A stretch of 64,000 nt of DNA, taken from positions 4,672,001 through 4,736,000 of the forward strand of contig WBVU01000004.1 in assembly GCA_009192285.1 (NCBI GenBank), written 5' to 3'. The stretch is from Morchella semilibera (lineage: Eukaryota; Ascomycota; Pezizomycetes; Pezizales; Morchellaceae). The position numbers were made by a program, and so were the translations under genes. Under the pieces are notes generated by a model. It was given only the letters and a program-made list of their open reading frames with translations. It was not told the origin of the DNA and did no database searches. Within the stretch, counting starts at the first letter, position 1. Each line of letters starts with the position of its first letter. This document shows, in pieces, positions 1,442-10,220 of this stretch.

Positions 1442-2397
1442 ATGTACTGTAGTTCGGGAGAATTAACAGGTGTGATAGCACGTGCTTAGTACATATAATA
1501 GGTCCCCACAATCTTCTACTATCTACTATAATAACATCGATTTGTGTACTGCTTGGCGGGTTACCCTGCCTGCAGTTAGGTGGCAAGCTGGCCACTCCAC
1601 TAAAAAGAACACTAAGCATAAGACTCTGACACAGCTAGAAATAATTCAATATGGGGACGCCTATAACTGGAGTGTCTCAATGACATGAGTTCATGGCCTA
1701 ATAATAAATCACGTCAACTCTTGGTGCCTGGCCTGATGTCTCCTAAGCCTCATGAGGCTCAAAAAATATCCAGGAGTCTCAGGAGACTCTCAGGAGACCT
1801 GGGAGACTGTTGGGAGACTCCAGTCACAAGTTGAGTTTGTTGATGAATTCAACATTTAGAACCCCCGATTATCCCAATAATCTGCCAAGAAAATAATCAC
1901 CTTCGGAGATAATTATTCCCATACAGAACAAATATCCTGATACTAGTAGCCTAATTCTATTTCAATGTTCTCTTGTGACGGAGTAATCCGACGCAAAGAA
2001 GAAGATGACAATGATGATGCAGAAGGACTGAAGGAGCACAGTCTACATAATGAAGAGACCGACGAAGACAGAAACAACACCAGGCAGGCACAGGCACAGG
2101 CAATGGCGAAGGCAAAGGCAATGGCAAAGGCACACATCAGCAAGATTCAAACTCTCTCCAGAGGCTTGACTGGGTCTCCGGAGGCCGTTGCCAAGGCAAT
2201 TACCCTCCCGTCTCTCCTAATAACCTCGCTAACCATTTGTTGCCTCCCGAGTCTCCCGATGGCCTCCCGAGCCTTCTAGAGAGTCTCCTGAGCCTTCTGT
2301 TACCCTCCTTACCTCTCCTGACACCTCGCTAATTGTATGTAGCCTCCTGAGCCTTCTAGAGGGCTCCCTGAGCCTTCTGTTACCCTCCTCTCCTNTT
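1442..2397. repeat. Degenerate CTCC/GGAG-rich repeat tract
   Basis: From about 1735 the sequence is dominated by variants of a short word, CTCAGGAGACT or CTCCTGAGCC. It includes a perfect 12-base palindrome, GCCTCATGAGGC, near 1748. The same words build the downstream 101-bp array, so this looks like its decayed edge. An undetermined base sits at 2395. Bases 1442-1735 show nothing recognisable. An open frame at 1965-2279 is rich in QA/KA repeats and is probably not a gene. Confidence 0.55.
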
Positions 2398-2900
2398 CGC
2401 TTAATCATCAGTAGTCTCCGGAGATATCAGGAGGGCTTGGCGAGCCCTCAGGAGAGCCCAGGAGATTGACAGGGATTACAGGAGAGCTTGGGAGGTTTCG
2501 CTTAATCATCAGTAGTCTCCGGAGATATCAGGAGGGCTTGACGAGCCCTCAGGAGAGCCCAGGAGATTGGCAGGGATTACGGGAGAGCTTGGGAGGTTTC
2601 GCTTAATCATCAGTAGTCTCCGGAGATATCAGGAGGGCTTGGCGAGCCCTCAGGAGAGCCCAGGAGATTGACAGGGATTACGGGAGAGCTTGGGAGGTTT
2701 CGCTTAATCATCAGTTGTCTCCGGAGATTGGCAGGGATCACAGGAGAGCTTGGGAGGTTTCGCTTAATCATCAGCAGTCTCCGGAGATATCAGGAGGGCT
2801 TGGCGAGCCCTCAGGAGAGCCCAGGAGATTGGCAGGGATTACAGGAGAGCTTGGGAGATCTCGCTTAATCCTCCGGAGATAGCAGGAGGGCTTGGGGAGC
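2398..2900. repeat. 101-bp tandem repeat array
   Basis: The phrase CGCTTAATCATCAG recurs at 2398, 2499, 2600, 2701 and 2761, and a shortened form at 2862. Spacing is exactly 101, 101, 101, 60 and 101. The 60-bp unit is the full unit with an internal 41-bp deletion. Units differ by only a few bases, so the array is young or homogenised. It lies just downstream of the DUF6589 ORF, and related GGAG-rich sequence runs into the end of that ORF. Confidence 0.9.
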
Positions 2901-2976
2901 CCTCACGAGAACGCCCTACTCATCCTTGGGCTTATAACAGAGCGTCTCTGAAGCCTCTCTAAACGAAAACCTCCTA

Positions 2977-5970
2977 CTAGTGTGGAGGTCTACGATATCT
3001 CGCAGCCTCTTGGGAGAGAATATTACAAAGCCTCCAGATGGCGCCAGGAGAGCGCCGCTTAGCATCAGGAGAGCCCGCTAAGCCTTCTTGAAGGCTCGGG
3101 AGGCTCCTGCAAAGGCTCAGGAGGCCCTCGTACGGGCGGGTAAGCCCCTGGAGATCGAAAGTTTGACGGGTGTCTCCGAACGTCTCCCACACCTCCCGGG
3201 CCTCCGGTAGGGTTGAATAGGCTTGCTGATGAAGATCGTCTAGGCCGGCATGTGGGCCTAACATGTCAGGATCTAGATCCTCTTCTATCTCTAGGCCCCA
3301 CGATTGAGTGTCCGATGGGGACCCTCCAGGGTGCCAGTTGAATCGTGCACGCTGTATATATTCGCGCAGCGGCGCCCCAGTTGCGAGGCGTGATATTCCG
3401 GCGCCCATCAAATCTGTTGCCTCCCAGTGCAGTTGTTTCTTCACGCTATCCAGCGCGCGGGGAGTCGAGTCTCTGCATATGGCTTCCTCGAGGAGTGCGC
3501 GCACAATACTCGCTACATCAATTGAGCTACGTACCAAGGTGGAATGCGTCCCATAGTCATGCGCGCGAGATTCCCGCTCCATAGAAACCTTACTTGCGTG
3601 AAGCGACATCACTTGGCGTGATATCGTTTCTCTGAGGTATTGGTCCGAGTAGATATTGCTGCTTGGGTGGATCTTGGCTTTGATTTCACGGACAACGTAC
3701 TCGCCAAATAGGTCATCGGGCACCCACGCCCCCCTGCGCCCAGAAGGATTAACCAGGCAGTTGTGGCGCCATATATTTCTCATCTCCGGGGACCAGATTT
3801 TCTCCATGCATGCAATCAAATGAATCATCTCTCGCGGGTAATTAATATTTTGAGTACCATGTAATTGCGTGGTCCAGAGGCGAACAATATGCTCCAGGCG
3901 CCCGGGATCTCCTGCGCGCACCGCCGCGCCGTAATCTGCGTACAGCAATCCTTGCTGTAGTAGTAGAACCGCATTTTCATATGGAATATCTCGAGATTGG
4001 TGAGGAAGTGGAACGCCGCGCTCACAGAAACGCCTGCGTTTGACGACAGATAATCCGCCTTGTACTGGGAATATAATATCAACCATATCCTCTATTACGA
4101 CGCGCCAGTTGGCTGCGCGCAGGCGATGATTAAATATCTCGACGGTGCCAGCACCGAGAGTTTCGGCAGCAAGAGATATTACATGCGCTTCGAGCAGTTG
4201 TTGAAAGAATTGATCATATGCACGAAAATCTTTGGGCTTAGGTGTGCTGATCGCGGGCTTTCGAAGTAATTTAGCAAACCGGAGGATACTGGCGGGCTCT
4301 CGACCATCATCCCCCCAGTGCGCCTTGTATATAGTGCCCAACATACACATTTGGAGATGGAAGAGGCCGATTATAGGCTCCACGTATTCCATCTGGTGCG
4401 TAGGTTCATCTTCATGCCTGCGAGAAACAGCTTTCCTAACGGGAATTAGCTTGGGGAATAAAGAGCTGCGCCAGGTACGTACGCACAGTATATTTCTCAC
4501 CGTCATATAATCGCCCTTGAAGAGGATTAATTTGTCAATGAGCTGGTGGGCGGTAATATCAAGTTCCTGCAGAATTCCTTTTACGATGTCGATAACCTCG
4601 CTGATTATGGCCTCATTCTTATGGAAGGTAGGTAGAGTGTGAAGGTCAGACTTCTCCAAGGGCAATGGAAACAGCGCGGGTGCAATGAACGGTTCATAAC
4701 CTGGCTTGGTGATAGTGCCATCACTTGCTCTGCGCTCCATATTGAGTTCTATAGCGCCGCGCGCATGTTTGTGGAGTATGTTCCATATGTTAGCCTTCGC
4801 AGCGTCGCGCGCATATTGAAAAGTTGCTGAGTCCACCATTACATCGCGCGCAGTGATTAGCGCGGCGCGATCATGGCTAATCATTTGTTCACGCGGGAGG
4901 AATCCGGTGCGCTCGGTGCCCTGCAGGAAAGCAATATACCCGGCAGTGTAGTGCTGTTGGTACTGGCGATTGCCGGTAGTATGGGTCTTTACCCTCTGGT
5001 AAAAAACCATGTTGTCAAAAGAAACGAAGAATGGGTGGGTAGCAGCTTTGCTGCGCAGCATATCACGCACTGCAGAGGCGTTGGCACGCATTGCGTGGTT
5101 AACAGCTTCATAGGTGACTGAGATTCCGAGGCGGTGGAGGACCTCTATCACGCGTTTACCGGCGCCGGAGGCATTTAGATAATAAGCCAACATGCCTTGA
5201 AGAGAATTGGCGCGCTGCGAGCGCCCATAAGCTGCGATACTGATGGCAACTGTAGAGATAATATCATAACGCCTGGTGGCTGCAGGTTTCTCCGTGCTAG
5301 TGTTACTGACCCCCAGCTCTATAAACGGATGGGGATCTCCCAAACCTTCGTAGTATTGATTATGTGGTGAGGTGGCGGGATTTGGCTCGCGCGCGGGGTT
5401 GGGCTCGCGCGCTGCGTTTGGAGTGTGGTGCGCTATCATTGTATCAACGAGCCCCTTCACTGTAGGGGCAAAGCGGTGTTGTGCAGCTGCGATATCAGAT
5501 AATGAAAATTCGCTAATGTATTCATGGGTAAACTGGTTCATCTTTTTGCTCATATTTGGTGCAGTTATAAGCGCGCTCATTTCACGGTGCACAAGGTTCC
5601 TAACAATATCCACACATGCATTATTCAGGTCAATATCGCTAGCGAGGATTCTGGGTTGTGTGAGCGCAGCACATATAAGCTTGCCCATTACACCGCGCTG
5701 AAGGCAAGCTTTGGAGCGCGCGAGGGCGGATGGATCTGTGCACTCCAGATCCGCTAGTAGGCAGTCGGCTATATCATCAAAAGAATACTGGCGTACGAGA
5801 TCTTGCACCGCAGATAGTCTCTGGGGTAGGGTGAGAGTTGGTAGCTCGTGTGAAGAAGGGGCTGGTCTGCCGCTGTGGTGGTTATATATAGGTGAGAATG
5901 GCCTATAACCACCGCGCGCAGGGCGCGAGCTTTGAAGGGCCGTTCGGCGTGCTGGGCGCCGGGCGGGCAT
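2977..5970 (-). CDS. DUF6589-type protein, probably of mobile-element origin
   Basis: A single uninterrupted frame of 997 codons starts MPARRPARRT. I recognise the layout of the fungal DUF6589 family: an SFDNMVFYQRV motif mid-protein (usual form DNxxFY), FKGDYMTVRN (usual GDxxT), IGLFHLQMCMLGTIYKAHWG, and NCLVNPSGRRGAWVPDDLFG near the end. These proteins are multicopy in many fungi and are generally suspected to come from transposons; their chemistry is not known to me. The N-terminus is basic (MPARRPARRTALQSSRP). The last 60 or so residues are encoded by GGAG/CTCC repeat-like DNA, so the natural C-terminus may have been replaced. Different tandem arrays lie on each side (2398-2900 and about 6050-6345). 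Codons end often in GCGC-type bases, unlike the neighbouring genes. No introns are needed. Confidence 0.75.
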   Translation of the reverse strand: MPARRPARRTALQSSRPARGGYRPFSPIYNHHSGRPAPSSHELPTLTLPQRLSAVQDLVRQYSFDDIADCLLADLECTDPSALARSKACLQRGVMGKLICAALTQPRILASDIDLNNACVDIVRNLVHREMSALITAPNMSKKMNQFTHEYISEFSLSDIAAAQHRFAPTVKGLVDTMIAHHTPNAAREPNPAREPNPATSPHNQYYEGLGDPHPFIELGVSNTSTEKPAATRRYDIISTVAISIAAYGRSQRANSLQGMLAYYLNASGAGKRVIEVLHRLGISVTYEAVNHAMRANASAVRDMLRSKAATHPFFVSFDNMVFYQRVKTHTTGNRQYQQHYTAGYIAFLQGTERTGFLPREQMISHDRAALITARDVMVDSATFQYARDAAKANIWNILHKHARGAIELNMERRASDGTITKPGYEPFIAPALFPLPLEKSDLHTLPTFHKNEAIISEVIDIVKGILQELDITAHQLIDKLILFKGDYMTVRNILCVRTWRSSLFPKLIPVRKAVSRRHEDEPTHQMEYVEPIIGLFHLQMCMLGTIYKAHWGDDGREPASILRFAKLLRKPAISTPKPKDFRAYDQFFQQLLEAHVISLAAETLGAGTVEIFNHRLRAANWRVVIEDMVDIIFPVQGGLSVVKRRRFCERGVPLPHQSRDIPYENAVLLLQQGLLYADYGAAVRAGDPGRLEHIVRLWTTQLHGTQNINYPREMIHLIACMEKIWSPEMRNIWRHNCLVNPSGRRGAWVPDDLFGEYVVREIKAKIHPSSNIYSDQYLRETISRQVMSLHASKVSMERESRAHDYGTHSTLVRSSIDVASIVRALLEEAICRDSTPRALDSVKKQLHWEATDLMGAGISRLATGAPLREYIQRARFNWHPGGSPSDTQSWGLEIEEDLDPDMLGPHAGLDDLHQQAYSTLPEAREVWETFGDTRQTFDLQGLTRPYEGLLSLCRSLPSLQEGLAGSPDAKRRSPGAIWRLCNILSQEAARYRRPPH

Positions 5971-6049
5971 TTTCTATCGTTCAGTACGGTTTGTAGGCGC
6001 GTTATATATATTGCTCGCCACCGGCTAGTACTAATACTCGAGCTCGGCT

Positions 6050-6345
6050 GCGTGGTGGGTTGGCCGCGGCGGGGCTGCGCAGCGCAGTGGGTTCACCGCG
6101 ATAGGGTTTGGGTGCGCGGTGGTTTGGCCGCGGCGGGGGTGCGCAGCGCAGTGGGTTCACCGCGATAGGGTTTGGGTGCGCGGTGGTTTGGCCGCGGCAG
6201 GGGGTGCGCAGCGCAGTGGGTTCACCGCGATAGGGTTTGGGTGCGCGGTGGTTTGGCCGCGGCAGAGGGTGCGCAGCGCAGTGGGTTCACCGCGATAGGG
6301 TTTGGGTGCGCGGTGGTTTGGCCGCCGCAGGGGGTGCGCGGCGCG
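6050..6345. repeat. 64/65-bp GC-rich tandem array
   Basis: GTGGGTTCACCGCGATAGGG recurs at 6087, 6151, 6216 and 6281, with periods 64, 65 and 65; a partial GC-rich unit follows. Each unit also carries GGTGCGCGGTGGTTTGGCCG. At 6372-6383 the word CGCGGTGAACCC is the exact reverse complement of GGGTTCACCGCG within the units, so the array closes with an inverted copy. It sits immediately 5' of the DUF6589 ORF, where a promoter or a transposase-binding region could be. Confidence 0.85.
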
Positions 6346-6553
6346 GTGGTTAGTGGCGGGCGGATTGGCTTCGCGGTGAACCCGCGGCGCGATTTGAGCG
6401 ATAATATATGTAATAAGATCAAAATTCACCAGGCTCAGAAGTGGGTAAAGATTTGATAGCAGATTAGGCTTAGCGCGGAATATTAGCCACACACCACGTG
6501 ATTCTGAGCCTGGGACCGAGGCTAGCATCTATCTAACCCTACAGATATGAAAG

Positions 6554-6817
6554 ATGTTTCGAACATCATTAACGAGATGTCTCCTCACAAATGCCCAGCC
6601 CGAAATCCGGGTGACACCGTGTGAATCTCACACAGTGCTACCTGCACCTGCAATACAGCCCTCACTTTTATCCTCGCTGAGATTGTATAGGTGCTTCGGA
6701 ACTCACAATTTTGTGAGTTCCGAGAGTTGCGACAAACCCCTCATAAAATCTAGACATCTTCTTCCCCTGGAGCGCTACCGAGAAAAGCTGGCCGATAAAT
6801 CATTTACATCAACCTAA
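6554..6817 (+). pseudogene. Small ORF, possibly the truncated 5' part of a mitochondrial protein gene
   Basis: The 87-residue product MFRTSLTRCLLTN... has the arginine/serine/leucine-rich start of a mitochondrial import signal and ends LLPLERYREKLADKSFTST. The RYREKLADK stretch resembles the region just after the leader in the F1-ATPase assembly factor Atp11, but the rest of that protein is not visible before the next gene at 6984. It could be a fragment left next to the repeat island, a first exon I cannot extend, or a chance frame. The family call is weak. Confidence 0.22.
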
Positions 6818-6983
6818 GACATCCAAGCTTTGCGGCTCTTCTGCCACCCCTGTTCACTTCCAAAAGCGGTAATGCAACCGAGCTATGAATACATGCCAAG
6901 TTTTTTTTCCCCAAACCCATTCTCGTTGCGCAAGATACAAAACAGCCAACTACATAACATAAAATACAGTACTTGCAATAAAA

Positions 6984-8412
6984 ATGTCGGATTACATCTA
7001 TCGCCCGCCGCCGCCACCGCCACCACCACCTCCCAATAGCTCTAGGAACAGCGCAAATCCTGGAGGATATAGTGCGAACCCACAACCAGGCACCGGAAGC
7101 AATCGTGGTGGTAGAGCCAGAGGTTCACATAGCGGAGGCTTCAGTCGTGGTGGTAATGGTGGTGGGAATACAACTGGATGGGGGAATCCTAATAACCAGC
7201 AATTCTCCCAGCAGCAGCGCCAACCACATCCGCTACCCCAATTCCCACCAGCTACACACTACAACCCAATTATAGCACAGCAGCAATACCAGCAATACCA
7301 GCAATATCCATTGTACCAACAGCAGTCGCAGCTGCAGCTACAGCCGCATTCCAACCACTATATCAACAGTAACCCAATCTACACAGGTTCACACTACCAG
7401 CAACAGCCACATAACCCTTACCTCTCTTATTCTCAAGAACACTACCAATCCCAGCATCCACAGACCCTACCTCCAAAACCTCCCCAGCAGCAGCAGCCAC
7501 TCCCAACCGCCGGTTGGCCTACCCATTCCTCCTACGGCCACTTCAATGCACCTCCGCAACAGCCTTCCGGAAACCAGCAAAGACGGGAGCGCGATGATAA
7601 GCCTGATATGGATGAAACTACCTGGCTCTCCCTCAACGGCGGGAAGCTTATTGGAACTAATATCACCCCCCCGGAGACGCCAGAGGAGATCGAGGCCTGG
7701 ATCGCGCAACGAAAGAGCAGGTTCCCGACTGCGAAGAAGATTGAGGAGAGCATGGCGAAAAAGCAAGAGGCAGCTGCGAGAGCAGAAGAAGAAGCAAAAA
7801 GAGCTGCTACGCGACAGCGGAACGAAATGGATTTAAAGACTCATGCTACAGGGGGCAAGCGAAAACGTGCCGCCGCCGATACCGGAGGCGGAGATAGCGC
7901 GCCGGCTTTACTTATGGGCTCAGATATCGATAACGACTACGATACTAATGCTTCTGGCTCAGACCCCGACGATGATGATGCTCCGCCTGAAGTTGCATCT
8001 TCGAAAGTTAGGTCCACTGTTCCAGAAGCGAAAATACAAAAGCTTGAGGGCCAGGGTTCCAAGAAGTCAACAGCGCGCTGCCGCGATTTTCTGCGCGGAA
8101 AATGCCCAAAGGGAGATCGGTGCAGATTCCGACACGAGAATAAGGAGTCAGGCACGAAGAGGGAAGTTAAAACCGACAAGAAAAAGTCCTTATATCAGCG
8201 GGTATGTGTTTCCTCTGGGTGGGTTGTGAGGTGGTGGATACATGGGTTAGGGTTCAGTATCTAATTGTGAGTGATAGCTTGTAGAGTATGATCGGGAGAA
8301 GGAGAATACTCTTATGCTGCAGGTTATTCAGTACCTGGTCGACAAGGGGCAATTACTAGAGGAAACGTCGCAGAAACAGGGAGAGGAACAGGGTGCAACT
8401 GACACAAAATAG
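6984..8412 (+). CDS. NUFIP1-domain protein with CCCH zinc finger (Rsa1-like)
   Basis: Two exons (6984-8201, 8278-8412; 76-nt intron GTATGT...ATAG) give 450 residues. The N-terminus is MSDYIYR followed by ten prolines, then a Gly/Arg and Gln/Pro-rich disordered region. Around residues 207-250 lies the NUFIP1 signature: WLSLNGGKLIGTNITPPETP and then IEAWIAQRKSRFPTAKKI. A CCCH finger follows at about residues 368-386 (CRDFLRGKCPKGDRCRFRH). Exon 2 supplies the conserved tail LVEYDREKENTLMLQVIQYL. In animals and yeast (NUFIP1/Rsa1) this family scaffolds assembly of box C/D snoRNPs with the R2TP chaperone. It converges on NOP12, another ribosome-biogenesis gene, with only about 186 bp between stops. 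Confidence 0.85.
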
Positions 8413-8598: not shown

Positions 8599-10220
8599 CT
8601 ACTTCTTTGGATTCTTTGCCTTCCACGCCTGTGATCTAGAAATCGCTCTAGATCTCGGTTTGCCTGCCTTCTTCCCGCTCCCCCGCCTCTTAATCCCACT
8701 ATCTGTGTTGGCCGTAGCTCTCAATCCCTCAAAAACGTCGCCCTGGCTCTTGAGCTGTGCCGCTGCGGCGCGCCCAAGGATTTTACTTGCACGGTTGAGC
8801 TGGTCTCTCTTACGGGGGTCGACTTTGGGTTGGTAGACGGATCCCTTCCCATTAGCTCTTGGCCTACGAGAAGTAAGATCAGGATGACGATCTCGGTCAT
8901 TTTCAGCTGACCCTCTTGCGTTTCGTTTGATGGTCCTGGCGCGCGTGACGCGAAGTTTACGATCGTTAGGCATACGCTTTTCGTGTAGAAGGAGGGCCTC
9001 ATCGACGGCCATTGCATCCTGACCATGTCAGCGAATTGGTCGTATGGGGTCAATGATTGATATTACATACCTCAAACTGAACATAAGCAAAACCCTTTCC
9101 AACATTTGTCTTGGCGTCTCTAACGATCCGCACACTCTCAACCTTTCCTGCAACAGAGAAATGCTTCCAAAGGCTCTCCTCCTGAGCCTCGAAGTCTAAG
9201 TTTCCAACAAAAACACACCGTTTAGCATCTTGAGGCGCTGGGTGCGCAACCGAGTCAACACGGATGTGACGGTCGAGGAGGACAACCCCGTTCAGTTTCA
9301 GCGCCTCACGAGCTGCAGCGGCGGTTTTAAAGACGATATAGGCATTCAAGGTTTGCTGCTTCTCATGGAGCTTGTGAGTGATGAAGGCGGCCTTTCGGGG
9401 GATTTGTTCGGAAAAGGCGATGGAGCGAAATCGGACACTCTCAATAGGGCCGGCGCCAGTGATAAAGTGCGATTTAAGAAGTTTATATTCAGACTGTCAA
9501 AAGTCAGCTATAAATAATTCAGGGTGTGGACAAGATGTGGTATTCTAACTTTTGAGGAAACCACCGTGGAGGGAACGTTTCCGAGGAAGACAGTCCTGGC
9601 CGCTTTTTCAATCTCGATTTCTTTTTCATCTACAAGAGTTTCATGCTTGATTGGAAGCTCTTTCTTCTCGTTCTCATCCCCCGAACTATCATCACCGCTC
9701 TCTGCGAGGGCGATACTGGCCTTCTCTGCAAGCTGTTTAATCCTCTTTTTTCTCCTCTCCTCATCCGCTGCATCTTCTTCGTCCTGAAGCTTTCGAAGGT
9801 AGGAATCTTCGAGTTCCTCGTTTTCTCCCTTCCGTTTCCGTTTCCGTTTTTTATCAGATATTGTTACTTTGGCTACTTCCGGGATTGGGTCAGTTGGATC
9901 TTCGTTATCGGGATCGGCAACCTCTTCATTGACCTCCGAAAGATCGGCGTCGGCGTCGACAACGACTTCCTCATCATCATTGTGCCCTTGCTCTTCCCTC
10001 TCAAGCAGTACGCGGGCAGGCCTTGTAGGAGCTTTTACTGCACCAAACTAAGAAAGAGTCAACCATGATATATGTTTATCTAGTAGAATGAAAGATGGAA
10101 TGGAACACGCACGCTCGACTCAAATAGTGAGGCTAATGAGGGGTCGATTTTCTTTTCTGGGAGAGTCGCAGTTAACTTCTCCTTCTTGGTAGGTTTTTCT
10201 GATCTATCCTTCTTTCCCAT
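8599..10220 (-). CDS. NOP12: Nucleolar RNA-binding protein Nop12 (RBM34 family)
   Basis: Four exons (10220-10113, 10047-9550, 9493-9071, 9018-8599) close in frame to 482 residues. Introns are 65, 56 and 52 nt. After an acidic/basic linker come two RRM domains. The first begins [15 protein letters not shown] and has the usual long insert ([20 protein letters not shown]). The second has RNP2 CVFVGNLDF and RNP1 KGFAYVQFE. The tail is basic ([31 protein letters not shown]). This is the Nop12/RBM34 arrangement. In yeast Nop12 acts in the nucleolus in 60S-subunit pre-rRNA processing. It shares an upstream region of about 1.7 kb with the divergent Sds3/Dep1 gene. Confidence 0.92.

Follow-up and report, generated by a model that had tools for sequence, protein, structure and literature searches.

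The AcademH lineage of the Academ DNA transposons is said to go back to work by Kojima in 2020. In the parts of PMC10045372 open to us, AcademH elements encode a helicase and produce target-site duplications of 9 or 10 bp, AcademX elements produce duplications of 3 or 4 bp, and the length of the duplication is related to the helicase and the nuclease; in a portion of PMC10799480 AcademH is recorded for Basidiomycota, Ascomycota and Mucoromycota. KolobokH elements, as presented in an excerpt of PMC9587614, encode a RecQ helicase and are known from fungi only, and the available portion of PMC12730594 gives duplications of 8 bp for Zisupton and Dileera and of 7 bp for Kyakuja, and describes Plavaka transposases as resembling EnSpm. 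Here we compare with these systems a 64,000-nucleotide stretch of Morchella semilibera DNA (the window; C20:4672001-4736000, G000), which carries on its minus strand a 997-aa open reading frame (ORF; window 2977-5970). Residues 431-806 of this ORF matched DUF6589 (PF20231; E=1.3e-68) in a Pfam search, the sole Pfam match of the ORF up to E=10. Other Pfam matches, among them SLA1 and NUFIP1 domains, and the presence of split genes suggest a fungal origin. Taken as a whole, the locus is probably best explained as the right third of an AcademH-type DNA transposon with a DUF6589 transposase.

Exploring the host assembly (56.76 Mb, 23 contigs) with the ORF protein, we obtained at least 48 matching rows. 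The C-terminal part alone (residue 873 onward) was matched in 34 of them, and the remaining 14 represented DUF6589 proper, comprising the window, copies on contigs C22, C2, C3 and C1, and diverged copies on C11 and C5. The copy on C22 (C22:1841271-1850800) is complete and measures 9,530 bp; its ends form imperfect terminal inverted repeats in which 16 of the first 18 bp match, and it is flanked by a perfect 9-bp duplication, ACGCGCCCT. The left end, TAGCCTCG..., is common to C22, C2, C3 and C1 and lies 9.5 kb from the right end, at which C22, C2, C1 and the window agree exactly before their sequences diverge. The window holds the right 3,294 bp of this DUF6589/helicase transposon, about 35% of its length (3231..6524, minus strand with respect to DUF6589), including the right terminal inverted repeat at 6507..6524. 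The right copy of the target-site duplication, GCATCTATC, follows at 6525..6533 and matches at 9/9 positions the left flank of a half-element on C2, a flank that ends at C2:2737398. Across the 3,294 bp the window and C22 copies are 99.97% identical, indicating recent movement.

Duplications were found within single contigs on C22 (9/9), on C11, where the copy belongs to a second family (9/9), and on C1 (8/9), and two further 9/9 pairs are split over contigs. The four left and four right ends of the first family pair as 9/9, 9/9, 9/9 and 8/9, with every other pairing at 6/9 or less. Both features by which class II elements with terminal inverted repeats are recognized, inverted repeats (16/18 and 15/18 in the two families) and a duplication of fixed 9-bp length, are present. 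The ORF-bearing element is almost certainly a DNA transposon; an earlier note on this DNA had suggested, in this respect correctly, that the ORF may form part of a large mobile element carrying arrays close to its ends. The same note saw no clear terminal inverted repeats or target-site duplication; both exist, but the left end of the window copy falls outside the window. An 80-bp relic of the right end was also seen at corresponding positions on C9 (C9:215991-216070) and C10 (C10:216039-216118). These two contigs have nearly the same length (2,071,371 and 2,071,177 bp) and may represent alternative versions of a single chromosome. The flank of this relic has no second copy, and no left end was present in the stretch of C9 that was read.

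The match to the other copies switches sharply at window position 3231. We fetched 20 loci, 14 of them from the 34 rows matching the C-terminal part alone, and aligned them to the window: C22, C2, C3 and C1 match rightwards of this position (C3 from 3233), 14 loci match only to its left, and two diverged loci match neither half. Searching the halves separately gave the same 4 / 14 / 2 split with zero overlap. The sequence to the left belongs to a dispersed repeat of more than 4 kb, here called repeat B, whose 3' end occupies 2396..3230 on the plus strand; all 15 of its edges displayed, at 14 loci, finish at ...GCTGATG. All 14 fetched B loci match repeat B, 10/14 contain the 101-bp tandem array that in the window spans 2396..2870 on the plus strand (TRF rows 2396-2728, score 638, and 2562-2870, score 569), and 0/14 match the transposon. 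The four B loci without the array either enter long stretches of Ns (two) or reach the end of a contig (two). Given the boundary at 3231, the final ~84 codons of the frame of 997 codons (2977..3230, minus strand), to which the 34 C-terminal-only rows correspond, are read-through into repeat B. The native part of the ORF, encoding a probable transposase, covers 3231..5970 on the minus strand (913/914 aa), with residues 1-913 matching C22, where the DUF6589 ORF is 914 aa long. The frame described earlier as a complete DUF6589 frame of 997 codons is present with its domain but is not native in its full length.

No Pfam family scored above its cut-off in the pieces of repeat B that were scanned. 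At C7:830200-837320 (L055, L016) repeat B is apparently multi-exon coding and carries the 101-bp array, in variable length, near its 3' end. Immediately past one repeat B edge, a Tc1/mariner-like ORF was recognized by eye at L016:4113-4748. Within the window, two short sequences at 1732-1850 and 1974-2134 have many diverged copies among the other fetched loci.

The earlier note had proposed a single undescribed element with the 101-bp and 65-bp arrays as its functional ends. Both arrays do flank the ORF in the window, and both were detected by us, with periods of 101 bp (score 638) and 65 bp (score 539). The absence of the transposon from the fetched loci of the 101-bp repeat, the different DNA, including the helicase, that the other four copies have in common left of 3231, and the position of the true left end 9.5 kb away all speak against that model, to which we give almost no credence. 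The 101-bp array can be regarded as foreign to the transposon with hardly any doubt, since it sits in the 3' region of a different dispersed repeat; the 65-bp array is an end array of the element, all 4 of its genomic matches lying inside element copies. Occurrence of an array apart from the ORF, which the earlier note held would count against its proposal, was found for the 101-bp array and was not found for the 65-bp array. How the left half of the window copy came to be missing is suggested by single Ns at window 2395, C2:2743763 and C3:2137334, each within a junction region. The N at 2395 is the sole non-ACGT base in the window, stands at the edge of the 101-bp array and is a probable assembly join. 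To its right the window reads repeat B followed by element positions ~6237 to the end, and left of the N on C2 are element positions 1 to about 6225 with one short interruption. The simplest reading is one insertion, with repeat B inserted at the DUF6589 end and the halves assigned to different contigs through joins within repeats, so that the missing left half of the window copy probably lies on C2. A mis-join is suggested by the single N at 2395 together with target duplications swapped between contigs: the right duplication of the window matches the left duplication of C2, and the right duplication of C2, GAATGTAAC, matches the left duplication of C3 at 9/9. The fit is poorer for the C3/C2 pair, since element positions 2187-3808 and 5183-7834 are present in both. 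Alternatively, the duplications may have been swapped in genuine translocations, produced when element copies recombined, which would account for the perfect 9/9 agreement of both the C2-left/C20-right and the C3-left/C2-right pairs; with one N in each of the three junction regions, we consider translocation unlikely. The Ns, which lie in junction regions of different repeats, are likely assembly joins and cast doubt on the placement of the first 2.4 kb of the window.

The complete C22 copy encodes a ~652-aa protein, a helicase, a 133-aa ORF and DUF6589, which is convergent to the helicase. The helicase spans two ORFs with the Pfam domains DEAD and Helicase_C, and its top PDB matches were RECQ5, RecQ, BLM and WRN. 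This neighbour had been guessed from a fragment to be a pogo-like transposase, a candidate that we rejected in favor of a RecQ-like helicase on these domains and matches. A helicase match lies beside DUF6589 at 6/6 other element loci (C22, C2, C3, C1, C11 and C5), and no helicase was found among the matches listed for C20, the half that would carry it being absent from the window copy. The third protein (~652 aa, made up of 627 aa and 25 in the adjoining stretch) has no Pfam family over the 627 aa scanned, its single match, Hmw_CFAP97, falling under its cut-off; the 133-aa ORF, a putative gene, had no Pfam match.

On C11 and C5, DUF6589 and helicase homologues are likewise adjacent, at about 30% protein identity to the first family. 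The C11 copy of this second family measures 8,805 bp and is flanked by a perfect 9-bp duplication, GGTTGCACT; its termini, TAGTCTCGTGCCCA / TAGTCTCGTTCCCA, are similar to those of the first family and agree at 15 of their first 18 positions. In the C5 copy a single end was located within the fetched stretch. The C11 gene order, ORF1-helicase-(convergent) DUF6589, is the same as on C22. The third proteins of the two families are alike in position, their homology not being established by BLASTP (E=0.019). The persistence of this layout, at a protein identity of about 30%, is the strongest indication that DUF6589 and the helicase act jointly.

Arrays and inverted motifs lie near the ends of both families. 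In the window, the 65-bp subterminal array (6049..6349, plus strand; 4.7 copies, score 539) is located 79-379 bp upstream of the DUF6589 start; it comprises 3.7 copies in the C2 element and 4.7 in C1. An inverted copy of its repeated word, reported before from the letters alone, was recovered at 6371..6390 (20 nt, 90% complementary). Closer to the end is an inner subterminal inverted motif, CAAAATTCACCAGGCT, at 6420..6435 (16/16 match, E=1e-4), which in C22 forms an inverted pair, one member beginning 102 bp inside the left end and the other 90 bp inside the right end. The C22 element carries 16/31-bp units at 173-240 on the left and the 65-bp units at 9055-9355 on the right, and the C11 copy has one array at 219-338, counted from one of its ends, and another at 177-265, counted from the opposite end. 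A word shared by the arrays of both families, TTCACCGC, was considered and not found convincing.

DUF6589, which we take to be IPR046496 in InterPro, is a Pfam family without an assigned function. Judging from sequence, it is very probably the DDE transposase of the element. The candidate catalytic residues D319, D487 and E757 sit in blocks that an alignment shows to be common to both families (29-34% identity). A lone 745-aa DUF6589 gene without an adjacent helicase match was observed at C11:1924556-1925383 (L038); its second and third candidate catalytic positions are occupied by N and K, and it is possibly a domesticated host gene. Among the viral and prokaryote contigs searched, no relative was confirmed.

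In the mechanism that we propose, the DUF6589 transposase would recognize the TAGYCTCG... terminal repeats as well as the inner inverted motif and the end-proximal arrays, and the element would insert by a cut-and-paste-type route through a 9-bp staggered cut, of which the duplication itself is observed. The RecQ-like helicase, assigned by its sequence, would unwind the ends or aid strand processing and repair, and the third protein may be, more speculatively, a DNA-binding or assembly factor; the roles in transposition of the helicase, the third protein and the arrays are suggested by analogy. At the locus analyzed, repeat B would then have joined the transposon at the last DUF6589 codon, adding ~84 foreign codons, before the assembly breaks at the N. 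A broader proposal, which we put forward tentatively and hold to be rather doubtful, is that DUF6589 constitutes an unrecognized group of eukaryotic transposases that are accompanied by a third protein and by a RecQ-like helicase encoded convergently, use array-rich ends on both sides, and are the source of at least one stand-alone gene of the host, probably no longer active (C11:1924556). These data give a domain family without an assigned function a probable role, defined limits and a mechanism that can be put to experiment. What a helicase contributes to transposition in eukaryotes can likewise be tested in this family, whose ends are complete and whose copies are nearly identical. The locus also illustrates that a neighboring repeat and an assembly join can create a chimeric protein and a pair of transposon ends that are both spurious.

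Several points weigh against the explanation favored here. The split duplications hinge on three single Ns, that is, on joins, and the C3/C2 pair is the poorer fit; a search for an empty site gave none, the sequence flanking the C22 element on its right occurring only once in this assembly. The catalytic candidates come from three sequences, and the first aspartate is ambiguously aligned in the lone gene. Two AlphaFold models built from a five-row alignment had a mean predicted local distance difference test score (pLDDT) of 34.9 and 36.9, too poor to recognize an RNase-H fold, and no relatives were found among PDB sequences. The filing under AcademH draws on the helicase and the 9-bp duplication, and 9-bp duplications occur in Mutator-like elements too. 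A helicase gene is not typical of Mutator-like elements. Both AcademH features that we examined, the 9-bp duplication and a helicase beside the transposase, are found in this element, and its membership of AcademH appears reasonably probable. It could instead represent a superfamily of its own, not described so far, in which RecQ-helicase transposons use a DUF6589 transposase and resemble AcademH only in duplication length and helicase. Such a superfamily would fit the third gene in the same position and the arrays near both ends in both families, and also the library searched, in which we found no work on the DUF6589/PF20231 family or on its link to a helicase transposon, although Kojima 2020 may contain such a link. 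Against it stand the combination of a helicase and a 9- or 10-bp duplication, which marks AcademH in the text available of PMC10045372, and the occurrence of AcademH in Ascomycota, Basidiomycota and Mucoromycota reported in the portion of PMC10799480 cited above, and we regard a separate superfamily as improbable.

The element was also compared with other known systems. A KolobokH-type element, that is, a fungal Kolobok with a RecQ helicase, shares with ours both the host kingdom and the type of helicase. Kolobok duplications are TTAA, whereas the duplications here are 9 bp of varied sequence, and the gene arrangement differs, the helicase of our element being encoded by a separate, convergent gene; KolobokH is very improbable. 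Mutator-like elements resemble it in the 9-bp duplication and differ in that the sole Pfam match of the ORF is DUF6589 and that a helicase is present. KDZ and Plavaka elements are likewise fungal DNA transposons, some with accessory genes, but the 7- or 8-bp duplications of Zisupton/KDZ differ from the 9 bp found here. AcademH is similar in being a fungal DNA transposon with a helicase gene and a 9-bp duplication; in the element described here there are also a third gene and, close to either end, arrays.

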